From Candidatus Riflebacteria bacterium GWC2_50_8 (GTDB lineage: Bacteria > Muiribacteriota > Ozemobacteria > Ozemobacterales > Ozemobacteraceae): a stretch of 36,807 bases of DNA. The DNA is taken from assembly GCA_001787855.1 (NCBI GenBank), contig MFYY01000259.1, positions 35,500 to 72,306 of the forward strand, written 5' to 3'. Every line of letters begins with the position of its first letter. Position 1 is the first letter of the stretch. Both the position numbers and the translations under genes were made by a program. Positions 2,189 to 35,215 of this stretch are shown piece after piece. The notes under the pieces were generated by a model. That model ran no database searches. It saw nothing but the letters and a program-made list of their open reading frames with translations, and was not told the DNA's origin.

Positions 2189-2261
2189 GCAGGAGTAGCT
2201 CAGTTGGTAGAGCATCAGCTTCCCAAGCTGAGGGTCGCGGGTTCGAACCCCGTTTCCTGCT
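2189..2261 (+). tRNA. tRNA-Gly, anticodon CCC
   Basis: All four arms can be drawn. The acceptor stem is GCAGGAG with TTCCTGC (closing G-T wobble). The D arm is GCTC/GAGC with an AGTTGGTA loop. The anticodon stem is TCAGC/GCTGA with loop TTCCCAA, giving anticodon CCC. The variable loop is GGGTC, and the T arm is GCGGG/CCCGT with loop TTCGAAC. The discriminator base is T and CCA is not encoded. The 3' end is the left boundary of an accessory island, and a near copy of it recurs at 7603-7629. Confidence 0.95.
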
Positions 2262-2274
2262 TTGACATGACCCC
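2248..2274 (+). repeat. Left attachment-like repeat (tRNA 3' end)
   Basis: This 27-base stretch spans the 3' end of tRNA-Gly and the first arm of its terminator. It recurs at 7603-7629 with 24 of 27 bases identical, including an uninterrupted 13-base core at 2253-2265 (TTTCCTGCTTTGA). A duplicated tRNA 3' end is the usual footprint of tyrosine-integrase-mediated insertion, so I read it as attL of the 2262-7620 island. No integrase gene is present. Confidence 0.6.
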
Positions 2275-2301
2275 TGAAACCTTCATGGAATCAGGGGTTT
2301 T
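2271..2301 (+). terminator. Rho-independent terminator after tRNA-Gly
   Basis: The stem CCCCTGA (2271-2277) pairs with TCAGGGG (2291-2297) over a 13-base loop. It is followed immediately by TTTT. It lies 10 bases after the end of the tRNA and would end its transcript. Confidence 0.75.
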
Positions 2302-2595
2302 CTTACTCGGCCAGGTCATAAAAGCCGGTGTTAGGCCGGCCATCGAAAAGATAACGACATGAAATCGCAAGAAAAACCAACCTGAACGGCCGTTAATAGA
2401 AAATTGCCTGTGCTGATTTGCAACGCTGGCAGCCAATTTAGACCTCGTTAAATCTTGCATCAGCCAGAGAACTGTTATATTGTCATATATAAACAACTGC
2501 CCTGCTGATTGTCGTGGCAGGTAAAGTGAACCGAGAGGCCATGCGCAAAGAATGAAGGCTGAATTTACCGCAAGCTTTTATCAGAGTGTGGTTCT
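2302..2595. other. Intergenic region before the restriction locus
   Basis: No gene is supported in these 294 bases. A weak plus-strand promoter candidate for the downstream hsdR-like gene has TTGCAT at about 2455 and an AT-rich stretch (TATATTGTCATATATAAAC) at about 2475-2493. The spacing to a single best -10 is ambiguous. The minus-strand frame over 2215-2496 reads through the tRNA and is a shadow. Confidence 0.35.
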
Positions 2596-5333
2596 ATGAG
2601 TAAAAAACAGCTCTCTGAACGCGATATCTGCACCAAATTCATTACTCCCGCACTCGAACAGGCCGGCTGGAACATCGCTACCCAAATCCGCGAAGAATTT
2701 CCGATCACCAGCGGTCGCATAATAGTGCGTGGCAAAATGCACACACGCGGCAAAAACAAAAGAGCAGACTATGTTCTGTTCTATAAGCCCGGTATCCCGA
2801 TAGCTGTAATTGAGGCCAAAGATAACAACCATTCAGTTGGCGACGGTATGCAGCAGGCGCTGGGCTACGCCGGAATGCTGCAGGTGCCTTTCATTTTCAG
2901 CAGCAATGGCGATGCTTTTCTGTTCCATAACGCTATGGCGACTACTGGTAAAACCGAACAGGAAATAAGCCTCGACGCATTCCCTTCGCCCGATCATCTC
3001 TGGAATCTGTTCAAGAGCAGCAAAACCATCAGCCCTGAGCAGGAAGCCCTGATAACCCAGGATTACTACAGCGACGGCGGCAATAAATCACCTCGTTATT
3101 ACCAGCTTCTGGCAATCAATAAGACCATCGAAGCCATAGCGCAGGGAAAAGATCGCATCCTTCTGGTCATGGCAACCGGCACTGGCAAGACATTCACAGC
3201 TTTTCAGATCATCTGGCGCCTCTGGAAAGCAAAAGCGAAAAAGCGCATTCTCTTTCTGGCCGACCGCAATGTGCTGGTCGATCAGACCATGACCAACGAT
3301 TTCAAGCCGTTCGGTGCGGCGATGACTAAAATTAAGAAACGCCAGATCAACAAGTCTTTCGAAATTTATCTTTCACTGTATCAGGCTGTAACCGGCAATG
3401 AGGAAGAAAGAAATATCTACAAACAATTCAGCCCCGGCTTTTTTGACCTGATTGTCGTTGACGAGTGCCACCGCGGCAGTGCCGCTGAAGACTCCAACTG
3501 GCGACAGATTCTCGAATATTTTTCTTCTGCGACCCAGATCGGTCTTACTGCTACGCCTAAAGAGACAAAAGATGTCTCTAATATCGATTATTTCGGCGAA
3601 CCAATCTATACCTACTCTCTCAAACAGGGTATAGAAGACGGTTTTCTTGCACCCTACAAGGTTGTGCGTATCGATATAGACAAAGATCTCGAAGGCTGGC
3701 GGCCCAAAAAAGGCATGACCGACAAAAACGGCAATCTGATCGAAGACCGTATTTTTAACCTCAAAGACATGGATCGCTCACTCGTTCTTGAAAAGCGCAC
3801 CGAACTGGTGGCCGGCAAAATCAGCGAGTTTTTGCGCAATACCGGCCGTTTCGACAAGACCATTGTTTTCTGCGATAACATCGACCACGCCGAACGCATG
3901 CGCCAGGCCCTGGTTAACGAAAACCCCGATCTGGTTGCTGAAAACCCAAAATATGTCATGCGCATTACCGGCGATAATGAAGAAGGTAAAGTCGAACTCG
4001 AAAATTTTATTTTTCCCGAATCGCGCTACCCGGTAATAGCTACGACTTCAAAGCTTATGAGCACCGGAGTTGACGCGCAAACCTGCAAGCTGATCGTTCT
4101 CGACCAGCATATTCAGTCAATGACCGAATTCAAGCAGATAATTGGACGCGGCACCCGCATCAACGAAGATTTTAACAAGTATTATTTCACGATCATGGAT
4201 TTCAAAAAGGCCACCGAACTGTTTGCCGACAAAGACTTCGACGGTGAACCGGTTGTCATCTATCAGCCGAAAAGCGGAGAATCGCCGGTGCCGCCTGATG
4301 AGAGCGAACTGACTGACCCGACTTATCCAGAAAGCGAAGAAAAAGACGGCAACAGCGGTTTCAATGATGATAGCACGGCAACCGACGGGCAATCCCCAGA
4401 ATCAGCAACGCCAAAAAAATATGTCGTAAACAATGTCGAAGTTAAGGTGCTGTCAGAACGCGTGCAGTATTTTGACGCCAATGGCAAGTTGATCACTGAA
4501 TCTTTAAAAGATTACACACGCAAGACCCTGGCCCAGGAATTCGCCAGTCTGGATGACTTTCTGACCCGCTGGAACAGCGCCGCCAAGAAAAAGACCGTCA
4601 TAGAAGAACTGTCGCGCGAAGGCGTGTTTTTTGAAGCGCTTGCCGAAGAAATCGGCAAAGACCTCGACCCGTTCGATATTGTCTGCCACGTCGCCTGGGG
4701 TATGCCGCCACTTTCGCGCAAAGAGCGCGCCGAGAATGTTAAAAAGAAGAACTATTTCGCAAAATATGGGGAAAAGGCCCGCCGCGTTCTCGCTGCACTG
4801 CTCGATAAATACGCCGACGAAGGCGTGACTCATATCGAAGAAACCCGCATTCTGACATTTGTTCAAACAGGTGATGTTTCGAATTCAAAAAAGTCAAACT
4901 TCATAATTGGCGCTTGTATCGGGTATTACAATGATTTTGGCCTGCTTCAAAGTAAGCTATGGCCAATAGATACCCTATGCATAACGATTGCTGCGAATAT
5001 TGCTGAAACGGGCTTTCTAGGTATGGAAGCGTGTGTCCCTGACAGCGTTGTGGCATTTTCCAGCTTGGATAAGTCGATGGAGAAATTTGTTAAGCTTTTC
5101 ATTGATGTTGCCAAAAACGACTTAGAGCATTTTGCCCCATCAACTGCTCAAAAAAATATTAACTTAGGAATTCTAAACGACTTGATATTTCCAATGCCGC
5201 CGCTTGCTTAGCAAAAGCGGATTGTGGCCAGAGTGGATCAGCTGATGGCACTGTGCGACAACCTCGAACAAAGCATCACCGCAGCTGGCGACAGCCGCAC
5301 TGCTCTTCTCAACGCCATGATGTCGAAAGTATA
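2596..5333 (+). pseudogene. hsdR: Type I restriction HsdR-HsdS chimera (in-frame deletion fusion plus nonsense codon)
   Basis: The open frame 2596-5211 encodes 871 residues. Residues 1-753 are an HsdR restriction subunit of the shorter (EcoAI-like) type. They include a PD-(D/E)xK nuclease with D58 and E73-A-K75, Walker A ATGTGKT at 193-199, DECH at 289-292, a TATP motif at ~318-321 and QIIGRGTR at 514-521. HsdR proteins normally continue ~40 residues past the point reached near base 4854. Here the frame passes directly into text typical of the C-terminal target-recognition half of Hsd[45 protein letters not shown] and [14 protein letters not shown]. After MPPLA a TAG at 5209-5211 replaces the usual Glu. 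The same frame then resumes with QKRIVARVDQLMALCDNLEQ and ends at TAA 5331-5333, the normal HsdS tail. No hsdM is present. An in-frame deletion of hsdM and most of hsdS explains everything. A collapsed assembly is the main alternative. Confidence 0.88.
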
Positions 5334-5347
5334 ACAGAGAGGAAAGC

Positions 5348-6943
5348 ATGCAGGAACAATTGATTGATAGCCAGATTGAGGCAAAACTTGGTTCTTTCCA
5401 GGAACTTCCGGTTCTTTTCATCGGCTCGGGTTTTTCCCGACGCTATCTTGGCTTTCCAGACTGGTCGAGCCTGCTGGAGCACTTTGCCCGGCAGTGCAAT
5501 CATGACAATCCTCTCGCATACGCCAGATACAGTCGACAAGTTGAGATTGAAGGCAGCAAGGAAAATCTTCTGCCGCGCATTGCCACTCTGATTGAGAATG
5601 ATTTTAACCGGCAATGGTATGAGACAGCAAATTCAAAAAATCTGAAGCAAAATCTGGTTCAATTTGTAAAAAATGGCGGCTCTCCGTTTAAATGGTTTGT
5701 GGCAGATTTCTTCAAGAAAGACAAGTTTGAGTCACAGGATCAACTACTGCAGGATGAACTGGCTATTTTTGCCAGGCTGGCCAACCGCAGCATTGCCAGT
5801 GTAATAACCACCAACTACGATGGACTTATCGAGCATTATCTTTCTGACTACAAAAAATTTGTTGGTCAGGAAGAGTTGATTTTTTCGACAGTCCATGGGG
5901 TCCATGAAATTTATAAAATCCATGGCTGCTGTTCTCAACCAGAAAGCATCGTAATCAACGAAAATGATTACATAGAGTTTGGCAATAAAAAAGCATATCT
6001 GGCCGCCAAACTGCTGACGCTCTTTGTTGAACAGCCCGTTGTTTTTATCGGTTATTCTTTGCAGGACGACAATATCCGCAATATTCTTTCCGAAATTGTG
6101 AACTGTATTGATAATGAGAAACTGGCAATACTTAAGAACCGTCTTGTTTTTATCGAATGGAACCACGGCCACTCCGAAAAAAATGAGATTTCCAGTCATA
6201 CCATCAACTTCAGCAACACAAAAGTGCTGCACATGACTAAGATCACTGTTTCTGATTACAAGGCAGTTTTTGCCGGTCTTGCTAAAATCAGGTCGCAATA
6301 CGATCTTAAGATTCTCAGAAAACTTAAGAACGATGTTTATGAGGTGGTTACACATAACAGACCGGTCGAAGAATACAGAACCATCAATCTTGATGGAGAA
6401 TCCAGCTCTGATCCAAAAACGGTTGCCGGGGTTACTCTTAACAACTCCGGCCAATCTATTTTTATTCCAACACCTTCCGAGTTATACCGCGACATCGTAT
6501 TGGATAATGGTGGGTATAACCCGGACAATCTTATTGATCAGTGTTTTGAGCTGCTGTTAAAGCATAATTCAGGTAGTTTGCCGGGATACAAATACATATC
6601 AAGTTACTCAGGCACTTTACCAGCATATTTGCGTGATTTTAAAGCTGGCCACATAGATCATTTTTTCTCAAAAACTCTTCGAAACCAGCGAGCCAGACAA
6701 CCTATAACATGGAATGACTTTCTGCAACTTATGAAAAGCGAGTCAGTGCGAGCCTTCGCCAGATTTCATCTGATAAAACCAGAAGAAATCAAAGCTTTAG
6801 AACTTAAAAAAGTTCTGGTAGAAATATTTAACCAGGACCCTGATATTTTTGAACATCTGGAAAAGCCACACGAAAAAACTGACCTGAAGCGTGCAATCAA
6901 AGTTCTTGACTGGTTGCTTTATGGAAAAGAAAAAACCGCCTGA
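5348..6943 (+). CDS. SIR2-domain defence protein (probable NAD+-consuming abortive-infection effector)
   Basis: This 531-residue protein opens with a SIR2-like Rossmann domain at residues ~20-300. It shows the glycine/serine loop FIGSGFSRR (24-32), TTNYD (154-158), IHG (191-193) and FIGYSLQDDNIR (~233-244). These match SIR2-like domains of bacterial anti-phage proteins, not protein deacetylases, and the zinc-binding cysteine quartet is missing. Related domains hydrolyse NAD+ when infection is sensed. Residues ~330-531 form a second, unrecognised domain that could be the sensor. A purine-rich AGAGAGGAAAGC ribosome site lies before ATG 5348. The start is 14 bp after the end of the hsdS remnant, so it was probably a passenger of the original restriction operon. 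The gene is visibly AT-richer than its chromosomal neighbours, which fits transfer. Confidence 0.85.
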   Translation: MQEQLIDSQIEAKLGSFQELPVLFIGSGFSRRYLGFPDWSSLLEHFARQCNHDNPLAYARYSRQVEIEGSKENLLPRIATLIENDFNRQWYETANSKNLKQNLVQFVKNGGSPFKWFVADFFKKDKFESQDQLLQDELAIFARLANRSIASVITTNYDGLIEHYLSDYKKFVGQEELIFSTVHGVHEIYKIHGCCSQPESIVINENDYIEFGNKKAYLAAKLLTLFVEQPVVFIGYSLQDDNIRNILSEIVNCIDNEKLAILKNRLVFIEWNHGHSEKNEISSHTINFSNTKVLHMTKITVSDYKAVFAGLAKIRSQYDLKILRKLKNDVYEVVTHNRPVEEYRTINLDGESSSDPKTVAGVTLNNSGQSIFIPTPSELYRDIVLDNGGYNPDNLIDQCFELLLKHNSGSLPGYKYISSYSGTLPAYLRDFKAGHIDHFFSKTLRNQRARQPITWNDFLQLMKSESVRAFARFHLIKPEEIKALELKKVLVEIFNQDPDIFEHLEKPHEKTDLKRAIKVLDWLLYGKEKTA

Positions 6944-8960: not shown

Positions 8961-9665
8961 TTACTTGAACTCTACTGTTGCAGCGGCCAGCGGTTCTGAG
9001 CAGGCATAACCGATCATGCCGGTCGAGGTAACGTTTTCGAATTTCTGAAGAACGTCGTTCCATTTGCTTTCGACCTGACCACCGGGAACCTGGTATTCAA
9101 AGCCAACATGGAAAGTCACATACAGCTTCTGTCCGGGTACGCTGCTTCCCATAATGCTCCAGAATGAGCTTCTGAAATCACCTTCATATGACATTCCGGC
9201 AGAAACCCAGCCGTATATATCAGGAGAAAGAGAAGAATAGCCATCAGTTGAGCTTGCCCACTTCGGCAATTCTTTCAGATTTGCCGGCCACTTGATGTTT
9301 TCAATCGGTGAACCGCTGTCATATGAAGACCAAACCTTGTAAAAACACAGATCTTCTTTATGATGCTGCAGATTTGCCGCCTCGTCTTTTTTTACCTTCT
9401 CAAGGGCTGAACCAAGAGTTACTCCCTGTGGAAGAAGCGCCCTGACATTTAATTGAGCCTGATCGCCTGCCGGAAGAAAAAACTTGCCATCGCGATAGTC
9501 AAACATCGACATGTCAAATTTTGCGCGGGGCGGGCAACCTGTCTGAGAGATCAGTACGATGCCACCACCGAAATTCTTTGCATAAGCCGGGTCGAGGTCA
9601 TCCTGAGCAAACACCGAAACTGCTGAAAGCAGCACCATCAGAGACAGTACTATCAATTTTTTCAT
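8961..9665 (-). CDS. Secreted hypothetical protein
   Basis: The frame is open to 9917, but the ATG at 9665 is preceded by a strong ribosome site (AGGAGGAGTTAATA) and starts a textbook signal peptide, MKKLIVLSLMVLLSAVSVFA, cleaved before QDD. The product is 234 residues, with a mature part of about 214. It contains a proline/cysteine segment (QTGCPPRAKFD), a low-complexity Ser/Tyr region (STDGYSSLSPDIYGW) and a C-terminal FHVGFEYQVPGG segment that looks like beta strands. No family is recognised. It stands alone with the bidirectional terminator behind it. Confidence 0.75.
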   Translation of the reverse strand: MKKLIVLSLMVLLSAVSVFAQDDLDPAYAKNFGGGIVLISQTGCPPRAKFDMSMFDYRDGKFFLPAGDQAQLNVRALLPQGVTLGSALEKVKKDEAANLQHHKEDLCFYKVWSSYDSGSPIENIKWPANLKELPKWASSTDGYSSLSPDIYGWVSAGMSYEGDFRSSFWSIMGSSVPGQKLYVTFHVGFEYQVPGGQVESKWNDVLQKFENVTSTGMIGYACSEPLAAATVEFK

Positions 9666-10021: not shown

Positions 10022-10774
10022 CTACATGCCTGCAGAAACGACCTTGGTGTCGCGCATCAGTTTGGCAACCGTAGACTCTGAAATGCTGCTGACCGGAATA
10101 TTGCTCTGCATCAGCCTGCATTCTACAACCACCCGCAATGCTCTCTTGTCGCCATCTTCGACCAGAAAGAAGGCAATATTGTTTACGTCATTTATCTTGT
10201 TAAAAGCATCATTGTCATTATTGGGCTCAAACAGGCCGCCAACTGAAACCCCGGAGTCGGGGGCGGTAAACACCGCGCCGGGCAATCCCACCGGAAACGT
10301 GGAGTGCCGGGTATAGTCGCCGGTACGCAGATAGGTCAGGCTGCCGGCGGTCAAAACCAGCGAACAGCCTTGCCAGCGCCCGCTGGTCAACTCGCTGAAC
10401 GCAGAAGCTTCAACCGCAGATTTCATGATCGCAAAATAAGCGACCGGCTGATTGCTGCCGTTGCTTTCAATTTTTTTGCTGCCACTTTCGAGCTGATTGA
10501 AAGCGAGGGAGTTGATGCTGACATTGATTTCAGGCGATATCTGGCTGGCCTCGCCATTCATTTTGATAACATAGGCGCTGTTGGCCTTCTCAAGATCTTC
10601 TTTCAGCATGGCCAGCAGAATCTGAACTTCTTTCTGCCGTGACGCCTTCCATTCGCCGACTCGATAAGCTGTTGTCAGCTGCCTGAACATAAGAAACACC
10701 GACAGCATAAAGGCAGACAGAATACTTGCCGCAACAATTATTTCTACAAGAGTGTAGCCTTTGCGAGTCCTCAT
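10022..10774 (-). CDS. Prepilin-like protein, PilW/GspJ type minor pseudopilin
   Basis: This 250-residue protein starts with a type III (prepilin) signal, RKGYTLVEIIVAASILSAF, cleaved after the Gly, with the conserved Glu at mature position 5. The long hydrophobic helix is followed by AYRVGEWKASRQKEVQILL and a large globular part, like GspJ/PilW minor pilins. The mature protein should sit in the inner membrane and join a pilus or pseudopilus tip after cleavage by a PilD-type peptidase. Its ATG overlaps the upstream stop by one base (TGATG), so translation is coupled. It is the last gene of a seven-gene operon. The subtype is inferred from order and length. Confidence 0.8.
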   Translation of the reverse strand: MRTRKGYTLVEIIVAASILSAFMLSVFLMFRQLTTAYRVGEWKASRQKEVQILLAMLKEDLEKANSAYVIKMNGEASQISPEINVSINSLAFNQLESGSKKIESNGSNQPVAYFAIMKSAVEASAFSELTSGRWQGCSLVLTAGSLTYLRTGDYTRHSTFPVGLPGAVFTAPDSGVSVGGLFEPNNDNDAFNKINDVNNIAFFLVEDGDKRALRVVVECRLMQSNIPVSSISESTVAKLMRDTKVVSAGM

Positions 10775-11223
10775 CAGTTTTTTACCCGGGTTGAATTGAT
10801 CGTCTTCTTGATGCTTCTTTTCATGCCATTACCTTCGATGATAACTTCAAACTCGATTGCGTCTATCTTGTATTTTGTCTGGCCAAGCACCCGGCAATTG
10901 GTGTGATAATCAAGAGCAAACGGCGATGTTCTGCTGCCCTGGAGCGGGCCAAGCAGGTATTTTTCCCAGGGGTCGGGGGTCGCGATTCTCTTGTCTCTGA
11001 CCGAAAAATTGTAGGCATAATAAAACTCTGACGGAAGCTGTTTAAACTTGAGCAGAGCAAGCTGAGTGATGCCCTGACCGAGAAAATCCATCTGAACGCG
11101 CTCAAGTAATCTGCTGTTAATCGGGGTAGCGTTACGCGAACTGCTGATATACATGCCCGCAAGAGCCAGCAGTGCGGTTGAAAACACCAGCACGATTACT
11201 ATGGCCATGCCTTTTCTTTTCAT
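10774..11223 (-). CDS. PilX/GspK-like minor pilin-type protein
   Basis: This 149-residue protein begins KRKGMAIVIVLVFSTALLALAGMY, the pattern of PilX/GspK N-termini: a basic-Gly start, a hydrophobic helix, and no Glu at position 5. The remaining ~115 residues are polar. It is shorter than typical GspK and closer to PilX in size. The start has a GGAAGAG ribosome site inside the end of the preceding gene. Its stop overlaps the start of the PilW-like gene by one base. In minor-pilin complexes this component sits at the tip with the GspI and GspJ types, which flank it here. Confidence 0.7.
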   Translation of the reverse strand: MKRKGMAIVIVLVFSTALLALAGMYISSSRNATPINSRLLERVQMDFLGQGITQLALLKFKQLPSEFYYAYNFSVRDKRIATPDPWEKYLLGPLQGSRTSPFALDYHTNCRVLGQTKYKIDAIEFEVIIEGNGMKRSIKKTINSTRVKN

Positions 11224-11227
11224 ATTT

Positions 11228-11788
11228 TTACTCTTCCAGATTGGCTTTCAAGGTTGAAAGCGCAATGGGTGCAGGCTTCACGCCGTTAGACTCGGTCCAG
11301 CTCACCGATACATCGTATTGCTTTACCATTATCGGACGATACTTGTTTGACCCGTCAAACACTGCTCCATCAGTCGTTTCTGGCAGAAATTTCCAGGTTT
11401 CGCTCTTTTCAGGGTCGTAACCGGAGTCGTTAAGATCAACCGGATGGTAAGCAAAAGTAATTGGATAATTGCTTACGACAAGCTGCACTGCATAAGTTGT
11501 GTCGGATGTTCCTTTGATGTCGCCGAGAGGAACTGTTCCGCTCGCGGCCTCCAGATTGCTGTTCTGCGTGCCGGTTGGAACCTGGTCAAATGGCAGCTTA
11601 AGCAGCTTGTTCATCGCCGACTCGGCAAAATGCACAGCCTCTATTCTTCGCATGTCCTTTTGCGTCATCTTGTGACCCTGGCTGAACACGCCGACAATCG
11701 GCAGTATGGCTACAGCCATAAGTATGGTCGCCAGCATTATCTCAGTGAGAGTTATGCCCGACTTTGCATTCATGTAAGGTGTTTTCAT
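11228..11788 (-). CDS. Prepilin-like protein, PilV/GspI type minor pseudopilin
   Basis: This 186-residue protein has a prepilin signal, KSGITLTEIMLATILMAVA, with Gly before the cleavage site and Glu at mature position 5. The text AVAILPIVGVFSQG and the following RRIEAVHFAESAMNKLL are characteristic of GspI/PilV. The mature body carries a predicted beta-rich region ending in VKQYDVSVSWTESNGVK, as in these families. Two ATGs (11788 and 11773) are possible starts and neither has a clear ribosome site. It begins one base after the stop of the 218-residue gene and ends four bases before the PilX-like gene. Confidence 0.8.
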   Translation of the reverse strand: MKTPYMNAKSGITLTEIMLATILMAVAILPIVGVFSQGHKMTQKDMRRIEAVHFAESAMNKLLKLPFDQVPTGTQNSNLEAASGTVPLGDIKGTSDTTYAVQLVVSNYPITFAYHPVDLNDSGYDPEKSETWKFLPETTDGAVFDGSNKYRPIMVKQYDVSVSWTESNGVKPAPIALSTLKANLEE

Positions 11789-11789
11789 G

Positions 11790-12446
11790 CTATTTATTGC
11801 TGTCTGTGATTTTGTCGAGATCGGTCTTGGTCCATAGAGTAAAATCTTTTACTTCTGCGCCATCGAAGAGCGCTACGCGGTGAACGCCCATGCCTCCGGC
11901 AAGATAGTTGCCGGTGTAAACCCAGTCAATTTCGAGACCGGTTTTCAGCGGCATTTCGTCGATAGAAAGCACATCCTGATCTTTGCCAAGCAGACAATAG
12001 CGCAGGTTATACTCGCTGTACATCGAAGCCCTGACCGTAATTCCAAAGTAACAGACCAGATCTGCCATCATCTGCATACTTGATCTGGCCGACGAAACAA
12101 CTACTTCCAGTCTGGGAAACCGATCGCGAGATTGCGCCTCAGGACTGCCGCTTCTGGCAACAGTCGTGTTGTCTGCGACCTCTTGTAACATGTCAAAACC
12201 GAGATCTTCGAATTCGCTCTTATTTAAAGAAATCAGCACGTTTGCCGTGTCAGCCGGCAGAAAAGAAGCGATTCTGCGCCAGAAAAAAGCTCCCGACAGA
12301 CTGGCAAGAAAGGGCACATCTGTGGCCTCCTTAACTGGCTGCCACAGATGTATGAGTTCATCGCAGGCACGCAGGTTGCTGCCAGATGCTGACAGCAACA
12401 CTGAGATGCAGATCGCGAGATACAATAAGTTTACTTGTGAAATCAC
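11790..12446 (-). CDS. Secreted hypothetical protein in the prepilin operon
   Basis: This 218-residue protein starts at GTG 12446, directly abutting the TAA of the 1388-residue gene, which implies reinitiation. The N-terminus MISQVNLLYLAICISVLLSA is a signal peptide. A Cys follows at residue 28 (SNLRACDEL), but it does not fit a strict lipobox. The mature protein has alternating hydrophobic stretches (ANVLISLNKSEFEDLGFDML, FPRLEVVVSSARS). No family is recognised. Its fixed place between a giant secreted protein and three minor-pilin-like genes suggests it is an accessory of the same complex. Confidence 0.65.
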   Translation of the reverse strand: MISQVNLLYLAICISVLLSASGSNLRACDELIHLWQPVKEATDVPFLASLSGAFFWRRIASFLPADTANVLISLNKSEFEDLGFDMLQEVADNTTVARSGSPEAQSRDRFPRLEVVVSSARSSMQMMADLVCYFGITVRASMYSEYNLRYCLLGKDQDVLSIDEMPLKTGLEIDWVYTGNYLAGGMGVHRVALFDGAEVKDFTLWTKTDLDKITDSNK

Positions 12447-15400
12447 TTACTTGAATGTCTTGTCTATCGTTCGTATATCGAGTCTTGATGAAGAAATCGG
12501 AATGATAATCTTCAGATAACGCACATTTGGATTGCTGGTAGCGTTTTTAGGATTGTCAGGATTTGTCGGCCAGTTGCGAGCGTCATCTTTGACTTTCAGC
12601 TCCATGACGTAGTTTTCAGCTATTCTGAAAATGTGCATATACTTTGTCAAAGCTCCGATGTCTTTGATCAGTGCCGAATCCTTGTCGCGCAGATCCCAGG
12701 TTTCAATTGAGACGTTGCCTACGTTGTCGCTCAACTTGGTCTCAAATGTAACCGGCACGTCGATCTCAAGCGTTGAAGGATCATGGGTGCTCTTCTGGGC
12801 CAGAACAGCAGCAAATGGCAGCGTCGCAGAAATTTTAAACTTGCTGTCTACACCAAAGATGCTGCCGGGATCAGTCACACTCTGAAATGCCCATTGTTCA
12901 ACACCATTGCGTTCTTCGGACTGCCCGGTTTTTTCTGCCAGACAGGCCCACTGACCATCGACATAGGTTGGCTGAACATTCGAGGGGCCAACCATCAGCT
13001 GATCGGGGTTCTTGTCGTCTTTAGCCTGAATGAACGCAAGCGGTCGGTCGTTATCGATAATAACGATCTGCCCTTCCATAAAATCGCCGCCGGCATTGCC
13101 TGAAGCGTCAACCAGATTAAAGCCATATTTGAGATTTTCATAAGTGCTCAGCTGGTTCGCGTAATGATAAGCCATCTCAGGATACATGTTGGCGCCATCC
13201 TGCTTGAAGTAGTCAAGATCGCTTACCGCGATGATGAATTTTCGATAGGTCCAGCTTCTGACTTTGGGCAGCGGGCAGTCGGCGGGCAGATCTTTAAATG
13301 AATAGAGATACTGCTCGACCTTGTAAGGAGACTTGTTGGTAAGGCCATCTGGCGTGTTGCGATATTTACTTTGAGCGGCCGTGCGGAATGCGATGGGCAG
13401 GCCATCTGGAACATTGATTCCCTCAGCGTTGTTATGCTGAAACTTGCCTGTCGACTTAGCAATACTGTGTTTGAGAGATATGCTGAAATACTTGTCGACA
13501 AGAAGAGGAGTAAGATTTGGATGAGTGCTCAGGTTGCCATAGGGATTGTCGTTGGCAGACCAGAGAACAATGTTTGTCGGATTGCTCTTGCCATCGGCAG
13601 TATTAGAAAGCCTTTCGCCAGTAGTTCCCCACAGGTATGCCGGCGCCAGGTCAATGGCGGTCTGCATGGTATTGGCAAGGTCAGCAAGCGTTTGTGCCGG
13701 AGGAGTGTCATCGAGCACGCTCACACGGCACTGGGCACCGATTGTGATCGGCACAAACTTGGTTTTTTCTACCGGAATAGTTATAACGCTGCCATTTGAA
13801 AGGGTTTTGTAAACCTTTTCAAAGTATTCATAGCTGTAAACACGGCTTGCATCAACTCTTAGAACATAATGACCCGGTTCTGAGGGAATGGTAAAGACGC
13901 TGTCGCCGGCTGCTATAGAGAGTTTTGCGACATTTGTTTCCTTGGTAATGTTTACCAGCGATTTGGTGGCGTCATAAGGATCTTCAAGGCTTATTTTCCA
14001 GGTAAATTTCGGTGTATCAGTAAGCCATCTCAGGTTGTTGTGCGGCTCATCAGGAATCGGTGGTGTAGCCTGCAGCATGGCTGTGATTCTGTCGATGCCA
14101 GCACTTTTGTTAGCGAGATTCTCTCTGGCCTGAAAACTCCAGGTCTGACTACCCTTGATCTGTGGTATTACAAAGCTTTCGCCAACCGGGTTGCTTGGAT
14201 TGGCCTTTTCAAGCGCAGATTCAGAGTTTGTATTGCCACTTATCAAAGCGGGTCGATAATTATAATTACTGACCAGCGATGAATCAGGCTTTCCGCTCAT
14301 AATTACGCAAGACCCGCCCGGATAGCTCGGATTAGTATAGGTCTGTACAAAAATCTTTGTTTTTGCCCACTCGGTGTTATCTTTCGCCTTGGCCAGAATA
14401 CTTTCTGACAGATAATCGCCCTTTTTATCAGCCAGAACACCACGCGGCATCTTGTCATACTGATAGTATTTAAAAGTCGATTTTACACTGATCTCATACT
14501 CGCCAGGCCCGAACATGATCGGCAATACCGGCTCTTTGGTGCTGGTGTTGCCGTCAAGAATAGTGTTATCGAGCGGGTCTCCATACATGTTTTTGGTCTG
14601 AACAACTTTCCAGTAATAATAAAGATGCGCGCTTTCAGTTGTCGAAGGAAACCTGCCAATGAAACTGTTGCCGTTAGGGTCATCAGTTGCTTCACCAGCG
14701 CGGTTAACACCGTTGTTGTCAAAGTCAGGAGCGTTTTCAACCGCAAAGAAATACTGTGTAGCATCGTTATATGGCGTCGGCGAATCGTTCATATCCTTGT
14801 CATAAGGGCCGTTAATATCGATGTTCGCTGTAGTGCCAGTAACCTTGGGCGGGGTGCAGACGTTGATAACCGCGACTTCTGTTCGGTAGGCATCGCTTAC
14901 CTTGGGAGTAGTTCTGACCAGTGTGCCCGGGCACATTGACCAGTTGCTTCTGTCGCCGAGCAGCGCGGCGGCGCAGATAAAATCCTGTTCGAAATAGTCT
15001 GAGCCAAGCAGAATGTCACCGCTGGTATCCATGAAGCTGCCACTGTAGTAATTCAGCATGGTTACGCCTTTGTAGATATCCTGCTTGAATTTGGCACGAT
15101 AGAGATCAGGAACCATAGTTGACTTCTTGTAATAAGTATAGGCGTCGGCGGCTTTAAAGGCCGGCATATCCTTGCCTGGTTGATTTTCTGGATCTCTTTT
15201 GGTCGAAACGAAGTAGAGATTGCCGAACCCATCGGCATCAATAGAGTTGGGCAGATCTGGAATGCTCGTTATATCTATGACTTCGGGAATACATGGCTTG
15301 GCATCATTTTCGTTTCTGACAAATGAATACACCAGTGGAATGGTCTTGTCATAGGCATAAACAATTCCTCCGGTCTGCCACCACTGGTCAGAAACTGCCA

Positions 15401-16613
15401 CATCAGTGAGTTCTTTAAGAAATCCGCTGGCGGGAACATTTGCCAGAGCCAGCCACTGATTGATTTTGTTGGTGCCGAGAACGTATACCCAGTCAGTAGT
15501 CAGATTTTTCGAGCTTACGCCCACCTTTACCGCCGTCAGATCTGCCGGGTCACCTATGGTTGCAGAAGTATACGCGATGTTATTGAGCTTCAGCGAGTAA
15601 TTTGGCGTGCCGTAATCGCGGGTATACAGATAACTTCGCCCGGCGCCAGACACCAGACAGGACAGAATCGGCGTGTTGCCGGTAGGTATGGGAGTCCCGG
15701 GGCCGGTGCCGGGTGCGCAGGGGTCGCCGCATTCGTTAAGAGTATCCTTGGTGTTGGTTGAGCCAAGAACAACGCTGCCAGCCTGCCCACGGTCATAAGG
15801 ACCCAGCTTTTCATCAACACTGTAGCTCAAAAGCTTCAGCTTTTCTTCGTTAATCTGTACGGTTTCTCTGACCAGCTTATGGCACAAACCTGCTCGAAAT
15901 GGAAATCCTGCGCCATCCATGCATTGCACGAAACCATACATCTTGTAAGGGCCAAGAATGGTATTTGGGTTCGAGGTTCCATACCAGTCAGGCCTGAGAT
16001 ATGTGAACGAGCTGTTAATCTGGTCTGCCGAATCTCCCGAATGATACCAGCGACCATTGGCGATCTGGTAATAACCAGGCTTTCCAGGTGCCGCAGCCGG
16101 CATCCATGAACACGGATAACAGTCGCCATAATAACCGTAGCCTGTGGTGTATTGTGAAGGATAACTCTTGTTGTCATGAATACCCACGCCACTTCCGGTG
16201 TTGCCGGGATAATTGTGGTGAATATGCATGATTTGATCATGTAAACCGGCATCATATGGGCCATCCGGCGTGACACTTACGCTGGTCAGACACTTTCTTA
16301 TCAGCGGGTAGGGCGAAAAATGCATGCCGGTAGTGCCATCAGACGAAAATGTCCACAGCTCTTTCTTGGTGCTTTTGATAGTTTCGTTGTAAAGCATCGA
16401 TGCCGACAGGTTAAATGCCTTGCCACCGTCATAAAGATAACCCGGGGCGCTGCCGGCAACCAAATTGTTCAGTTTGTAAACGCCTCTGACCGGTCCGTCG
16501 CCGATCAGCAGAAAGGCATCGCCGTTTTGCTCATAAAAGTCATCCAGCGCAAAAGTGCTGGTCGGAAAAATCACCGCCATCGCCAGGACAACCAGAACGA
16601 TAAGCTTTTTCAT
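12447..16613 (-). CDS. Very large secreted protein (1388 aa), candidate pilus-tip or surface adhesin
   Basis: The signal peptide MKKLIVLVVLAMAVIFPTSTFA is cleaved before LDD. No membrane anchor or sorting signal is seen. Residues ~315-570 have propeller-like repeated strands (GRSYLYTRDYG, DLTAVKVGVSSK, SIDADGFGNLYFVST). Residues ~600-1380 look like a string of Ig/PKD-like beta domains, with phrases such as GPGEYEISVKSTF, SEPGHYVLRVDAS, GFNLVDASGNAGG and VTFETKLSDNVGNVSIETWD. The protein is rich in Tyr, Asn, Pro and Gly with scattered cysteines. Upstream are two Skp-like genes (9-bp gap) and downstream are prepilin-like genes. PilY1 proteins occupy this position in minor-pilin operons and also have a beta-propeller, but I cannot see PilY1-specific motifs. 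The adhesin/tip role is an inference. Confidence 0.8.
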   Translation of the reverse strand: MKKLIVLVVLAMAVIFPTSTFALDDFYEQNGDAFLLIGDGPVRGVYKLNNLVAGSAPGYLYDGGKAFNLSASMLYNETIKSTKKELWTFSSDGTTGMHFSPYPLIRKCLTSVSVTPDGPYDAGLHDQIMHIHHNYPGNTGSGVGIHDNKSYPSQYTTGYGYYGDCYPCSWMPAAAPGKPGYYQIANGRWYHSGDSADQINSSFTYLRPDWYGTSNPNTILGPYKMYGFVQCMDGAGFPFRAGLCHKLVRETVQINEEKLKLLSYSVDEKLGPYDRGQAGSVVLGSTNTKDTLNECGDPCAPGTGPGTPIPTGNTPILSCLVSGAGRSYLYTRDYGTPNYSLKLNNIAYTSATIGDPADLTAVKVGVSSKNLTTDWVYVLGTNKINQWLALANVPASGFLKELTDVAVSDQWWQTGGIVYAYDKTIPLVYSFVRNENDAKPCIPEVIDITSIPDLPNSIDADGFGNLYFVSTKRDPENQPGKDMPAFKAADAYTYYKKSTMVPDLYRAKFKQDIYKGVTMLNYYSGSFMDTSGDILLGSDYFEQDFICAAALLGDRSNWSMCPGTLVRTTPKVSDAYRTEVAVINVCTPPKVTGTTANIDINGPYDKDMNDSPTPYNDATQYFFAVENAPDFDNNGVNRAGEATDDPNGNSFIGRFPSTTESAHLYYYWKVVQTKNMYGDPLDNTILDGNTSTKEPVLPIMFGPGEYEISVKSTFKYYQYDKMPRGVLADKKGDYLSESILAKAKDNTEWAKTKIFVQTYTNPSYPGGSCVIMSGKPDSSLVSNYNYRPALISGNTNSESALEKANPSNPVGESFVIPQIKGSQTWSFQARENLANKSAGIDRITAMLQATPPIPDEPHNNLRWLTDTPKFTWKISLEDPYDATKSLVNITKETNVAKLSIAAGDSVFTIPSEPGHYVLRVDASRVYSYEYFEKVYKTLSNGSVITIPVEKTKFVPITIGAQCRVSVLDDTPPAQTLADLANTMQTAIDLAPAYLWGTTGERLSNTADGKSNPTNIVLWSANDNPYGNLSTHPNLTPLLVDKYFSISLKHSIAKSTGKFQHNNAEGINVPDGLPIAFRTAAQSKYRNTPDGLTNKSPYKVEQYLYSFKDLPADCPLPKVRSWTYRKFIIAVSDLDYFKQDGANMYPEMAYHYANQLSTYENLKYGFNLVDASGNAGGDFMEGQIVIIDNDRPLAFIQAKDDKNPDQLMVGPSNVQPTYVDGQWACLAEKTGQSEERNGVEQWAFQSVTDPGSIFGVDSKFKISATLPFAAVLAQKSTHDPSTLEIDVPVTFETKLSDNVGNVSIETWDLRDKDSALIKDIGALTKYMHIFRIAENYVMELKVKDDARNWPTNPDNPKNATSNPNVRYLKIIIPISSSRLDIRTIDKTFK

Positions 16614-16622
16614 GACAACCGG

Positions 16623-17591
16623 TTACCTTTCTCTAAACATCTTGATCCCTTTAATCAGGGAATCTATGAGATAAGAATTAAACTTGTACTTTTCAAAAAG
16701 CGCTCGACAGACCTGTTCGGTAATATCCTGCCCGCCGGCGATAAAGAGCTTCGCCGGGCGAACCGTCGCAGCCAGAGATCCGACATCCTTGCGATGAGCA
16801 AGGTGTTGAAATGACAAATTCTCGATCGTTTTCATGAGTGAGGGCGCCCAGTGGTTAGCTATAGTAAATGTGTTTGGCTCAGGCAAAGGCGACTTGAGTA
16901 TTATCTGATATGCCGTGTTAGACCACAAAGGCGTATTTTCAGGGATGTTCTGTTGAACTTCTGTTGGAGCCTCAGGTGCAGAAAGAGTGTCGTCGATGAC
17001 GCACGCAACCTTGAGCTGGCCAGCTATTTCCTTAATAGTTGCATCAAGTTCTGCTACTATTATTTCGAGCTTTTCGACGGTCTCGGCGCGTGACAGAAAA
17101 ACTTCCTTCCAGATTGAATCCTGCAGGTTGACGATTTCCTTGTCGATTTCGCTAAATTCGTCCTGCAGCTTATCAAGTTTTTTCTGGTCTCTGGTCTGAG
17201 TCTCATCCAGCCTTTTGGCAATTTCATCTTTCGAAATTTTGAGCTGTGCCAACTTTGTGCCTTCGAGAGTCCAGTTCAGTCGTGTTTTTGAAATAGTCTC
17301 CTGGATTTTGCTCTGTTTGGCCAGCAGGGCATCGATCTTCGGCGCCAGAACCTTCTGTTGCGCTGTCATTCTCTCGTAAACCGCTTCCATGACTTTGATT
17401 TCGTTTCGCTTCAGCTGCGGGCGGGTAAACCGGTGCGAGACAAAATCAAAGTCTTTCATCTCGGGGTGAAGAACCAGACAGGTGCGATAATCTATTGTTG
17501 CAAACAGACTTTCGCCACAAACCAGGCTCGCTGAGCCTATAATCAGAAGAATTGTGAGCAGCAGTATTTTACTTTTCAATTTTCTCTTCAC
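16623..17591 (-). CDS. Skp/OmpH-like periplasmic coiled-coil protein A
   Basis: This 322-residue protein has a signal peptide (RKLKSKILLLTILLIIGS), then FATIDYRTCLVLHPEMKDFDF. A long charged helical region at residues ~65-195, rich in Lys, Glu and Gln, should form a coiled coil. A C-terminal part of ~120 residues ends in IKGIKMFRER. The layout resembles Skp/OmpH chaperones (short strand, then coiled-coil hairpin) but the protein is twice as long. It is a paralogue of the gene just upstream, and both share R-x-C-x3-H-P after the signal peptide. The GTG start at 17591 overlaps the upstream gene by 23 bases. A TTG a few codons in is an alternative. Its position before a giant secreted protein suggests a dedicated periplasmic chaperone. 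Confidence 0.7.
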   Translation of the reverse strand: MKRKLKSKILLLTILLIIGSASLVCGESLFATIDYRTCLVLHPEMKDFDFVSHRFTRPQLKRNEIKVMEAVYERMTAQQKVLAPKIDALLAKQSKIQETISKTRLNWTLEGTKLAQLKISKDEIAKRLDETQTRDQKKLDKLQDEFSEIDKEIVNLQDSIWKEVFLSRAETVEKLEIIVAELDATIKEIAGQLKVACVIDDTLSAPEAPTEVQQNIPENTPLWSNTAYQIILKSPLPEPNTFTIANHWAPSLMKTIENLSFQHLAHRKDVGSLAATVRPAKLFIAGGQDITEQVCRALFEKYKFNSYLIDSLIKGIKMFRER

Positions 17592-18333
17592 CTCGATCAG
17601 CTGTTTTTATCTCAGATGTGCTTTTAATCAACGCGCAGGCTGCATCAGTGTAATCTTTTGCGCCATATTTGAAAGGGTTATTGCAGACGCCCGGCAATTT
17701 TCTCTGCCAGTAATGACGGCTGTTTGCCAGCCATGCTGCAAAATCATCAGATTCAATGCTTTTGGGGTCTTCCAGAAACGATTCGAGTCGTTTGTCGCAT
17801 AAAACATGCATTTGTGGCTCAGATGGGTGCTGAATCGGCGTCAATGCAGCTGCATCCATTAAGATATCAACTTTATGCTGCTGCCTTATCTGGCTAAAAA
17901 CATTGGCCAGATCTTTTTCGATGCCTTCGAGAGTACACCAGACCATTGCCTGATCAGGCAGCATGCTTTCGTTTTCCTGAAGAGTTTTTAATACCAGGCG
18001 GCGTTGCTTGATATATTCAATTTCATTTACCAGCTGTGAACGGCTTTTCCAAAGGCTGGCGTTCTGCCCATCCTTATCCGAAAAGGCCTTGCCAATCTGT
18101 TTTTCAATGCCTTTCAATTCCGCTGTGGCAGTTTCTTCAAGTTTGTTCAGCCTGGCGCTTTCTTCGGCAAAATCTTTTACTGGCGCCGAAATGGTGTCGA
18201 AAAATCGCCGCGTCTCCCAGTCAAATTTCTGAAAGGCCGGATGCGACAACATGCAGGCGCGCGAATCCAAATAGCCGATTTCACTCGCAAAAAGCAGGCC
18301 AGTTGCTAGATAGAAAAACAGAAAAAGTAACAT
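17569..18333 (-). CDS. Skp/OmpH-like periplasmic coiled-coil protein B
   Basis: The frame is open to 18486, but I choose ATG 18333. It has CAGGAG four to five bases upstream and starts the signal peptide MLLFLFFYLATGLLFAS, giving 254 residues. The mature N-terminus EIGYLDSRACMLSHPAFQKF resembles the start of protein A, with R-x-C-x3-H-P and the following aromatic residues. A helical region at residues ~50-140 is rich in Glu, Lys and Leu and probably forms a coiled coil. It is the first gene of the prepilin operon, and a promoter is visible at 18382-18409. The last 23 bases overlap the start of protein A, so the two are translationally coupled. Confidence 0.7.
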   Translation of the reverse strand: MLLFLFFYLATGLLFASEIGYLDSRACMLSHPAFQKFDWETRRFFDTISAPVKDFAEESARLNKLEETATAELKGIEKQIGKAFSDKDGQNASLWKSRSQLVNEIEYIKQRRLVLKTLQENESMLPDQAMVWCTLEGIEKDLANVFSQIRQQHKVDILMDAAALTPIQHPSEPQMHVLCDKRLESFLEDPKSIESDDFAAWLANSRHYWQRKLPGVCNNPFKYGAKDYTDAACALIKSTSEIKTADRGEEKIEK

Positions 18334-18381
18334 GCATCTCCTGATGCCTGGTTGGGCTTTAATCAAAAGAACACCTCTGAA

Positions 18382-18409: not shown

Positions 18410-18535
18410 TCTATATGCCATCTATACAGAACATTCAGTATTGCCTGCTTTTTTCTGATTCTATTCCTAATTGACAAGGCCGTCAAGAGAACAAGAAATC
18501 TGAGATCAGGCAGTATTTATGCCGTTGACAACCAA

Positions 18536-18623: not shown

Positions 18624-19823
18624 TCAGGTTTTAATGTTGCTCCGCGCGGCGAGAATACCTAGAGACTCTCGAAACCTGTTGTATACCGCACGAGCGCGCT
18701 GCGCAAAGAATGCCGCTGGCCGACCGAGCGCGACCTTATCATGGCGATCAGAAAGTCGCTTTGCCATGTTGTTCAGGCCCTCAAGCAAAATACCGAGTTT
18801 TGCGTAAAGCATTTCCTTAAGCACTTTTTCAGAATGATCACAGAGTTTGCGGGTGTTCTCAGAACGGTTGACCATGGCCATCAGCATCCTGGTCATTATT
18901 TCAGGCTGTTTGAGAAAGAATTCCTCAACCTGGCTCAGATGCACGACAATTGCGGTCAGATCGCTGGCGCAGATTACGTCGGCAGTTCGCCGCATGTCTG
19001 GCACCGCCGCATCAAGATTGAGAAAAACCGCTATTTCGCCGACAATACTGCCCGGCGCGTCAATAATGATGTTTGACCCACCACCATTGGTGACAACCTC
19101 AACAATACCCTCAGTAAGAATAAACAGTTTGTCGCCAATGGTACCTTCTTTGCACAGCAGCTCACCAGCTTTAAACTTCTGCATTTTTACATCTTTACTG
19201 ACATAGCTGACCACCCCACAGGCCACAGAAGCGCTAGAAGTGCCGTTCAATTCGGCCTGGCGCAGAGTCTCTCTGGCTATCGTAAAAGCCTTATGGTTTT
19301 TGGCCTCAGTCAAATCTGGGTCGCTGAGGGCAGGGCAAACCACGTTAGCCAGCTCGTTAACGCCAGCCATGTAATCTCGGGCAGTTGCTCTGATAAAAGC
19401 CTCAAGCTCGATCTCTTCCTTTGCGATTCCAGCAAAATAGGCGAAAAACAGCTTCATGTAACGCGCAAACGAAATGCAGGCGCGTACTCCGACCTTCGGA
19501 TCGCTGGCAAGAACCTGTTGTAAGGTTTCCTGATTGTCAGCTGGCACTGGCTCAACTGATGATTTGTCGAGCGCAAACACCGAGAAACACTGGGGCTGGT
19601 TCATTAACGCTTCGACTTCGCCGAACAATTCATGGTGCGACACGATACCGATCAGGTCCGCTTCGTTAAGCATTCGCCTGACACCAAGTTCCTGCACGGA
19701 TTTTTTTGAGTAAACCTTGGCAAAACGGCCAGAAGTAACCTTAAAAAACGCTGGAACAACCTCGCCTTGCAAAAAAACATGATCTCCAGGGGCATAAACA
19801 CTCTGCTCTCTTGTCTCTTTCAT
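18624..19823 (-). CDS. Protein with two cyclic-nucleotide-binding domains
   Basis: The product has 399 residues from ATG 19823, chosen because AGGTGGG precedes it; an upstream ATG at 19847 lacks a ribosome site. Residues ~8-95 form a first CNB beta-barrel (APGDHVFLQGE, LFGEVEALMN), but the phosphate-binding Arg is missing from its cassette. Residues ~215-310 form a second CNB domain with FKAGELLCKEGTIGDKLFIL, VGEIAVFLN (261-269) and RRTADV (278-283), close to the canonical cassette. A helical segment at ~100-195 separates the two. The C-terminus is helical with no recognised DNA-binding or enzymatic domain. It may be a cAMP/cGMP-responsive regulatory or scaffold protein. It is a single gene with its own promoter at 19866-19894. 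Confidence 0.8.
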   Translation of the reverse strand: MKETREQSVYAPGDHVFLQGEVVPAFFKVTSGRFAKVYSKKSVQELGVRRMLNEADLIGIVSHHELFGEVEALMNQPQCFSVFALDKSSVEPVPADNQETLQQVLASDPKVGVRACISFARYMKLFFAYFAGIAKEEIELEAFIRATARDYMAGVNELANVVCPALSDPDLTEAKNHKAFTIARETLRQAELNGTSSASVACGVVSYVSKDVKMQKFKAGELLCKEGTIGDKLFILTEGIVEVVTNGGGSNIIIDAPGSIVGEIAVFLNLDAAVPDMRRTADVICASDLTAIVVHLSQVEEFFLKQPEIMTRMLMAMVNRSENTRKLCDHSEKVLKEMLYAKLGILLEGLNNMAKRLSDRHDKVALGRPAAFFAQRARAVYNRFRESLGILAARSNIKT

Positions 19824-19865
19824 AAAACCCACCTGCCGTATGTACAACTTTTTTCTGTAAAATTT

Positions 19866-20408: not shown

Positions 20409-21542
20409 ATGAGCAAAATAATACTGTTTGTAATGATTCTTGCATGCACACTGAGCTTTGGCTGCAGCAGCGGCGGTTCGAGTAAACCAGTCAGCATCGC
20501 TTCCGGACCGGCGATTACTGCAACATACCCAACCAACGGTGGATCTGGCACCCTGGTCACCATTTCGGGAAGCAACTTTGGTTTGGTGCAAAGCACCAGC
20601 ATCGTCAGTTACGCCGGCGTGACCGTAATTCCGGTTACCTGGTCCGACACTCAGATAACCCTGAAAGTGCCAGATAACGCACCAAACAATGGTAATTTCG
20701 TGGTTGTGGTCAACGGCGTTTATTCAAACGCGAGTGTGGTTTTTAATCTGAGTAACCCGGCCATCTCGTATATTTCGCCATCTACCGCCGCCATAGGTTC
20801 AGATGTAACAATTTCAGGCCAGTATTTCGGCACCTTCAACAGCGGATGCTATGTGACCTTTAACAATACTACTGCAGCTATCAAAAACTGGAACAACACC
20901 AGCATCACCTGCACAGTTCCAGAGTTTTCAAGTTCACTGTCCAGCACCATTACTGTCGTTGTCTGGATCGACGCCTACCGCTACTCAAACAGCTACTCTT
21001 TTAACCTGACCGCGCCAACTATCAATAGCGTCAGTCCGAGCAGTGATAACGTCGGCGCCCGCATCGCCATTAACGGTCAGGCATTCGGCCAAAACCAGGG
21101 AACGGTAACCGTCGGCGGCTACACAGCCCAGATCGTCAGCTGGCTAGACACCAAGGTTGAATTTCGCGTGCCACCGGTTAATTCTGCCGGCTGGAAAACT
21201 CTGACGCTTACCAGTGGCGGAAGACAGGTCAACAACTCATTCACCGTCGCTGCGCCTGAAATTACCAGCGCATTCTCGTCATCAGGAGGAAACGCCAGCA
21301 ATGGCAATACTTTTACCATTGTCGGCAATAACTTTGGTTCGTCTGAAGACCAGATTACGACAAGCGTACAACTGCGAGACGAGAGCAATAATATCTATAC
21401 GCCTGGCATAACCAGCTCTGATACCAGCATTGCTTTTATCTGGCCAGTGCCAAATAAACTCATTGGCACACAAGTCGTCTATATAACCATCTCAGTTGGC
21501 GGCATTACCAATACCAACTCATATTACGTAACCGCTGATTAG
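20409..21542 (+). CDS. Lipoprotein with IPT/TIG repeats
   Basis: This 377-residue protein has a lipoprotein signal peptide ending in the lipobox LSFGC (Cys19), followed by a Ser/Gly-rich linker (SSGGSSKP). Four tandem IPT/TIG-type Ig-like domains follow. They start near ITATYPTNGGSGTLVTISGS (~37), ISYISPSTAAIGSDVTISGQ (~119), INSVSPSSDNVGARIAINGQ (~204) and ITSAFSSSGGNASNGNTFTI (~284). Each has the NFG/YFG/AFG turn of the family. Such proteins sit in the outer membrane or on the surface and mediate binding. The ATG at 20409 is directly preceded by a strong promoter with no room for a 5' leader. The gene is monocistronic. Confidence 0.85.
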   Translation: MSKIILFVMILACTLSFGCSSGGSSKPVSIASGPAITATYPTNGGSGTLVTISGSNFGLVQSTSIVSYAGVTVIPVTWSDTQITLKVPDNAPNNGNFVVVVNGVYSNASVVFNLSNPAISYISPSTAAIGSDVTISGQYFGTFNSGCYVTFNNTTAAIKNWNNTSITCTVPEFSSSLSSTITVVVWIDAYRYSNSYSFNLTAPTINSVSPSSDNVGARIAINGQAFGQNQGTVTVGGYTAQIVSWLDTKVEFRVPPVNSAGWKTLTLTSGGRQVNNSFTVAAPEITSAFSSSGGNASNGNTFTIVGNNFGSSEDQITTSVQLRDESNNIYTPGITSSDTSIAFIWPVPNKLIGTQVVYITISVGGITNTNSYYVTAD

Positions 21543-29045: not shown

Positions 29046-29047
29046 TG

Positions 29048-29893: not shown

Positions 29894-29918
29894 AGGCTGC
29901 CTCAAAAGCGACTTTCAG

Positions 29919-31751: not shown

Positions 31752-31773
31752 ATATTATCTCCTACAAAGTCGA

Positions 31774-32298: not shown

Positions 32299-32311
32299 AT
32301 TGCCTCCTGCA

Positions 32312-34558: not shown

Positions 34559-34665
34559 CTGAATACCCCTATTCTTTGCCGTGAGGCTTGCTTTCACATC
34601 GAAACATCATCTGTAACAGGCCTCATTCGCAAGCAAAATTTTACCCAGCGCTTCGGCAATCCCGG

Positions 34666-35154: not shown

Positions 35155-35215
35155 TATTTTTGTCAGACTCGCCACAAAAGCTGCGCCTTCTCTTCAGATG
35201 CATGCAGCACGGTCA

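Follow-up and report, generated by a model that had tools for sequence, protein, structure and literature searches.

What does a minor-pilin gene set do with a giant secreted protein and periplasmic chaperone-like proteins of its own? The question is raised by an operon in a 36,807-nucleotide stretch of DNA (called the window throughout), which belongs to contig C259 of a metagenome-assembled genome of Candidatus Riflebacteria (Ozemobacteraceae; genome 4.39 Mb, 75.9% complete), a member of an uncultured phylum. On the minus strand of the window, from 18366 down to 10022, seven genes form a tight operon encoding, 5' to 3', two Skp/OmpH-family proteins (Skp1 and Skp2), a 1388-amino-acid (aa) secreted protein (the giant), a 218-aa secreted protein and three prepilin-like proteins. 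An earlier reading of the letters of this DNA (the original prediction) had described a seven-gene operon whose genes abut or overlap throughout. Indeed, neighbouring genes overlap or are separated by no more than 9 bp, and all seven open reading frames are in place; the 218-aa gene, however, falls outside the conserved core. We report that the core recurs as a cassette across the phylum, and we favour, as the somewhat probable reading, that the copies encode alternative tip complexes of a type IV pilus (or a pilus-like structure), with client-specific Skp-family chaperones.

A paralogous cassette inherited as a unit

A search with the giant matched 27 of 37 relatives, and a profile search for giants matched 33 of the 40 genomes of the phylum. 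Cassettes were counted in the extracted neighbourhoods of the giants with family profiles. Among 59 distinct giants of the phylum, 53 have a Skp2-type neighbour and 35 a Skp1-type neighbour as well, and each of the three pilins stands beside 46-47 of them; several giants lack a full cassette at loci cut by contig ends. The conserved linkage in relatives on which the original prediction had staked its case is thus present: chaperone and pilin genes stay beside the giant at dozens of other loci, a recurrence that rules out a chance neighbourhood. Two main gene orders were found, Skp1-Skp2-Giant-PilV-PilX-PilW, as in the window, and PilV-PilX-PilW-Skp1-Skp2-Giant, with a median gap of -1 bp between adjoining cassette genes (225 gaps); a more distant clade (loci L100-L107 and L109) has one Skp-like gene. 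The window's own genome carries cassettes on contigs C259, C213, C154, C253 and C180, plus a fragment on C239.

The partners also diverge together. In 33 six-gene cassettes, tree distances correlated with those of the giant for Skp1 (r = 0.83), Skp2 (0.90), PilV (0.81), PilX (0.77) and PilW (0.77). When partners were shuffled within genomes, the mean r was about 0.24 and none of 1000 shuffles reached the observed value; the shuffles thus reject the species tree as the sole cause of the co-divergence, and the cassette has been passed on as one unit. When only pairs from the same genome were compared, Skp2 tracked the giant best (0.86) and PilX (0.48) and PilV (0.39) less well, on only 32 pairs.

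The linkage of giant and Skp-like genes reaches further. It is mostly kept in three families, f3, f4 and f5, whose giants measure 1.6-2.2 thousand aa and are partly homologous, and next to which no pilin trio was recognised; at a single f5 locus (L113) there are two prepilin-like genes, 4-6 kb upstream. Because the giants of f3-f5 mostly keep Skp-like neighbours without a recognised trio, the Skp-giant pair is a broader unit across the phylum than the pilin-giant pair. The pilin trio may have been added to that pair, or may be encoded elsewhere in f3-f5. Both the multi-copy paralogy and the reach of the Skp-giant linkage into families without a recognised adjacent trio go beyond what had been proposed from the window.

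Three prepilins of the PilV, PilX and PilW types

The trio consists of a 186-aa protein (11228..11788, minus strand, as are all features of the operon), a 149-aa protein (10774..11223) and a 250-aa protein (10022..10774), all with class III prepilin leaders: SG/ITLTEIML (PilV type), KG/MAIVIVLV (PilX type) and KG/YTLVEIIV (PilW type), respectively. The 186-aa pilin, a type present at 47 loci, matches ComGE (E = 7e-4) and PilV (E = 0.02); the 250-aa pilin matches N_methyl (E = 1.3e-5), ComGF (E = 6.8e-7) and GspJ (E = 4.1e-6). Across cassettes, the profile matches of the trio are to GspI, PilV, ComGE, GspJ, ComGF and GspK, below the curated cut-offs where these are shown, and the GspK profile matches two PilX-type homologs. 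Glu5, present in the PilV- and PilW-type pilins of the window and missing from the PilX-type one, was read in 32 of 39 PilV and 24 of 37 PilW leaders, most exceptions being apparently misread upstream residues; position 5 of the PilX type is hydrophobic in most of 42 readable leaders. Judged by leaders and profile matches, the trio is of the PilV/GspI, PilW/GspJ and E5-less PilX/GspK types, in agreement with the original assignment.

Extended homologs of Skp

Skp1 (265 aa, 17569..18366) and Skp2 (322 aa, GTG start, 16623..17591) lead the operon. As a single sequence, Skp1 of the window matches OmpH weakly (E = 0.009), and weak matches to PF03938, below the gathering score, were obtained for 12 of 27 Skp2 and 4 of 24 Skp1 proteins. 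PDB searches with Skp-like profiles returned generic coiled coils and gave way to hhalign comparisons in which the canonical Skp proteins of the phylum were aligned as reference and reversed alignments served as controls. Skp2 scored 97.4% (reversed control, 6.6%) and Skp1 96.6% (reversed control, 9.3%), and the homology spans the strand-coil-strand body; since the reversed alignments score so low, the match involves more than coiled coil. Skp1 and Skp2 are mutually related (99.5%). Moreover, the Skp C-terminal signature, which takes the canonical form VFVGGDDITEQV at locus L122 and the form LFIAGGQDITEQV in Skp2 of the window, was detected in 44 of 50 Skp2 proteins, where shuffles gave 2.2. 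Of 37 genomes, 34 encode canonical Skp by a separate gene. In a well-assembled relative (G003), each strong Skp2-profile match falls inside a cassette or no more than about 3 kb away; the sole remaining match (E = 9e-4) is the canonical Skp. By sequence comparison, the Skp-like cassette proteins are true but extended Skp homologs, distinct from the housekeeping Skp, and the earlier view that two Skp-like proteins head the operon holds.

Additional Skp-like genes were seen at some loci. At L036, L037 and L040, a second pair lies on the opposite strand just past one cassette type and faces that cassette. At L050 (Candidatus Ozemobacter sibiricus), a third Skp2-like gene (about 14.1-15.1 kb) stands between giant and pilins, at the position of the window's 218-aa gene.

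A giant outside known families

The giant of the window (12447..16613) shares with its homologs a signal-peptide-like N-terminus. None of the Pfam and NCBIfam models matches it, a PDB profile search gave no match, and neither PilY1 (PF05567) nor Verru_Chthon protein A or any other NCBIfam model was matched by the window giant or 16 homologs. On these zero matches, PilY1, Verru_Chthon A and other Pfam or NCBIfam identities were rejected; an alignment to PilY1 was looked for and none was obtained, so that the original description of the protein as not recognisably PilY1 stands.

Structure prediction gives a partial picture. An AlphaFold2 model of residues 20-800 shows repeated beta sheets (predicted local distance difference test, pLDDT, 71), and its nearest folds by Foldseek E-value include six-bladed propellers of the paraoxonase, 6-phosphogluconolactonase and SMP30 types. 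Superposition on these propellers is poor, and because the template-modelling (TM) scores are 0.14-0.32 we call the modelled N-terminal half propeller-like and nothing more precise. The model of residues 590-1388 (pLDDT 80) is predicted to form tandem immunoglobulin (Ig)-like sandwiches; with Foldseek it matches many Ig arrays without specificity, surface-layer proteins among them. PKD domains were found in the C-terminal half of 9 of 16 homologs.

The best-conserved stretches of the giants are FYEQNGDCYLLIGxGPxRGVYALNNL, directly after the signal peptide, and VSDQWWQTGGIVYAYD. At the very C-terminus, the window protein carries SRLDIRTIDKTFK (12450..12488). The consensus of this motif, LDxRVIE/D, lies in the last 22 residues of 45 of 58 giants; going by how often it occurs in the rest of these proteins, 0.1 would have been expected. 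The count reflects conservation among related sequences and not 45 independent events. Strand complementation between PilX and PilY1 has been predicted (PMC13190605); the analogy suggests that the last strand of the giant, LDxRVIE/D, may be a docking or donor strand.

A candidate pilus-tip complex and its alternatives

The gene set, the homologies, the linkage, the paralogy and the co-divergence are direct observations on these genomes, and they can be assembled into the following scheme. The GspI/PilV-, GspJ/PilW- and E5-less GspK/PilX-type pilins would assemble in the inner membrane as a priming complex. The 1388-aa giant, in the place of PilY1, would be exported by Sec and met in the periplasm by the cassette's one or two Skp-family proteins, acting as client-specific holdases that prevent this 150-kDa all-beta protein from aggregating or being misloaded before assembly. 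It would dock on the pilin trio, possibly via its conserved C-terminal strand, and the growing filament would push it through a secretin, so that it ends at the tip, where it would serve in adhesion or sensing. Duplication and divergence of whole cassettes would then yield several different tips in one cell. The window's genome or its relatives in the genus encode secretins, PilB/PilT-type ATPases and PilM; pilus machinery is therefore available.

We infer alternative tip complexes because of the analogy with Myxococcus xanthus (PMC7541494, PMC8833165), and with them export, docking, tip position, chaperoning and adhesion. The original interpretation, a possible tip-adhesin assembly module with periplasmic chaperones of its own, is partly supported: the protein types and their linkage hold, whereas the giant as tip adhesin and the Skp-like proteins as its chaperones are putative roles. 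Several points weigh against a pilus tip: the cassette has no fourth minor pilin of the GspH/FimU type and encodes no motor, secretin or major pilin; the propeller reading comes from a model of moderate confidence (pLDDT 71) whose TM-scores are low; and the giant-Skp pairs of f3-f5 are mostly without adjacent pilins, so the giant may have had a role without them. More tentatively, and as a possibility a little short of probable, the cassette may define a new class of pilus tip, with a non-PilY1 giant, several tips per cell, one or more Skp-family chaperones for each, and loading via the conserved C-terminal strand.

The f3-f5 pairs lend themselves to another explanation, in which the Skp-like proteins and the giant are an older export and folding unit for a large cell-surface protein, to which the pseudopilin trio was added in Ozemobacteraceae; the trio would be a type II secretion-like piston that releases or anchors the giant at the surface, not a pilus tip. 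The several secretins and GspE-type ATPases per genome, the correspondence of the trio to GspI/J/K and the Ig-array folds of the giant, which match surface-layer proteins among others, all agree with it. However, type II secretion uses one pseudopilin set for many substrates, whereas here cassette-specific trios co-diverge with each giant, and the tip-complex precedent of M. xanthus fits the gene set more closely; on balance we regard such a surface-protein module as unlikely, though worth keeping in mind. It is more doubtful still that the Skp-like proteins are structural and not chaperones, for example a periplasmic trimeric cage or stalk that stays as a permanent part of the priming complex. 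Their tree distances track the giant most closely (Skp2, r = 0.90), as those of stoichiometric partners would, but client-specific holdases would co-diverge too; and while they are about 100 or more residues longer than canonical Skp, they keep both ends of the Skp fold signature.

The locus could also be an ordinary PilY1/minor-pilin operon in which PilY1 has diverged past sequence recognition and the Skp genes are incidental neighbours. Incidental they are not, since Skp-like genes adjoin 53 of 59 giants. The gene company is that of fimU-pilVWX-pilY1 operons, PilY1 also has a propeller, and no PilY1 (PF05567) was found elsewhere in the 37 genomes searched, although the control set for that search gave no match either. 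Yet the conserved domain of PilY1 is C-terminal (PMC7541494), whereas the propeller-like half of the giant is N-terminal and is followed by the Ig array, and the 50 best PDB folds that Foldseek returned for the N-terminal model do not include PilY1. We hold this explanation to be very improbable.

Skp is known as a generalist that serves many different clients. In the cassettes, whole divergent pairs of Skp relatives appear to be bound to one client each and to have been duplicated along with it; under the reading of dedicated tip complexes this would, to our knowledge, be the first time that Skp has been duplicated and assigned to individual pilus-tip clients. If true, the cassettes offer a natural series of matched chaperone-client pairs for asking how a holdase becomes client-specific, and a route to pilus-tip diversification in Riflebacteria. 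The phylum is noted for its count of unknown gene families per genome (PMC10849945), and the present analysis provides names and a testable function for protein families left uncovered by the libraries used.

Start of the operon and neighbouring genes

Translation of Skp1, the first gene of the operon, probably starts at TTG 18366, preceded by the Shine-Dalgarno sequence GAGGTG; this start is preferred to the alternative ATG 18333 because the close homologs at L041 and L042 start upstream of that ATG. About 90 bp upstream of the TTG, a promoter-like site, TTGACG-17-TAGAAT (18458..18486, minus strand), matches 10 of 12 consensus positions; sites of that quality were also found in shuffled sequence, which makes it weak, chance-level evidence.

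Homologs of the 218-aa secreted protein (11790..12446) are confined to the closest cassettes (L041, L042, L043/L059 and L061, and weakly L026); the protein is a lineage-specific, dispensable accessory outside the conserved core. Downstream and in the same direction lies a gene for a possible accessory secreted protein of about 234 aa (8961..9665, minus strand), which has an adjacent counterpart in L041, the closest relative, and nowhere else. Upstream of the cassette (18624-19847) is a gene for a 407-aa protein with two cyclic-nucleotide-binding stretches, whose close homolog (404 aa, E = 5e-227) stands beside a different cassette in a relative (G005, locus L072); it may be a regulator or a coincidence. 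A secreted-type protein with four IPT/TIG (Ig-like) domains is encoded at 20409-21542, divergent from the cassette. Further away, after a tRNA-Gly, come genes for an HsdR-like protein of type I restriction, with an additional match to a specificity domain (Methylase_S) at its C-terminus, and for a SIR2-like protein (2189-6943), possible defence genes; and a compact chemotaxis cluster (28002-36784) encodes CheB, CheR, a methyl-accepting chemotaxis protein (MCP) with a CZB zinc-binding domain, CheW, CheA, CheD and a second MCP with a C-terminal hemerythrin domain.

Comparison with known systems

Verru_Chthon cassettes A-D (TIGR02596-TIGR02600) are multi-copy and combine one giant with three prepilin-like proteins. 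Our cassette resembles them in this multi-copy arrangement of giant and pilin trio, and 3 of 30 cassette pilins match their protein C (best E = 9e-5), but the giant has no match to protein A and we know of no Skp-like genes in the Verru_Chthon cassettes. The MSHA minor-pilin operon also holds a large non-PilY1 protein, MshQ, for which we know of neither a sequence match to the cassette nor accompanying Skp-like genes. With the GspI/GspJ/GspK tip complex of type II secretion, the cassette shares pilin types and Glu5 pattern; it differs in lacking GspH, G, E, F, L and M, in its cassette-specific large protein and putative chaperones, and in its many copies. Like Skp/OmpH (PF03938), the Skp-like cassette proteins keep an N-terminal strand, coiled-coil arms and a C-terminal VIDxS / GGxDIT signature; unlike canonical Skp, they are 265-400+ aa long, as against about 165-220, and fall below the Pfam cut-off, and unlike the housekeeping gene theirs are linked to the giant.

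The closest likeness is to fimU-pilV-pilW-pilX-pilY1 clusters, especially those of M. xanthus, which likewise join minor pilins to one large secreted protein and are duplicated as whole clusters (PMC7541494, PMC13190605). In M. xanthus, priming and tip complexes exist in alternative forms, built by three paralogous minor pilin/PilY1 clusters (PMC7541494); TfcP, a periplasmic stabiliser of PilY1, is the product of one of these clusters (PMC8833165). A PilX-type pilin without Glu5 is common to both, and TfcP illustrates that an extra periplasmic accessory is possible (PMC8833165). By contrast, the large protein of the cassette lies outside the PilY1 family (PF05567), its trio lacks FimU/GspH, Skp-family genes accompany almost every copy, and a single genome can carry at least six copies. 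A search of the open-access literature turned up no account of a Skp-PilY1 or Skp-minor-pilin unit and none of pilus-tip genes in Riflebacteria. All together, the joining of minor pilins and a large tip protein in one cluster is of a known kind; what is new here is the non-PilY1 giant, the Skp-family partners and the copy number.

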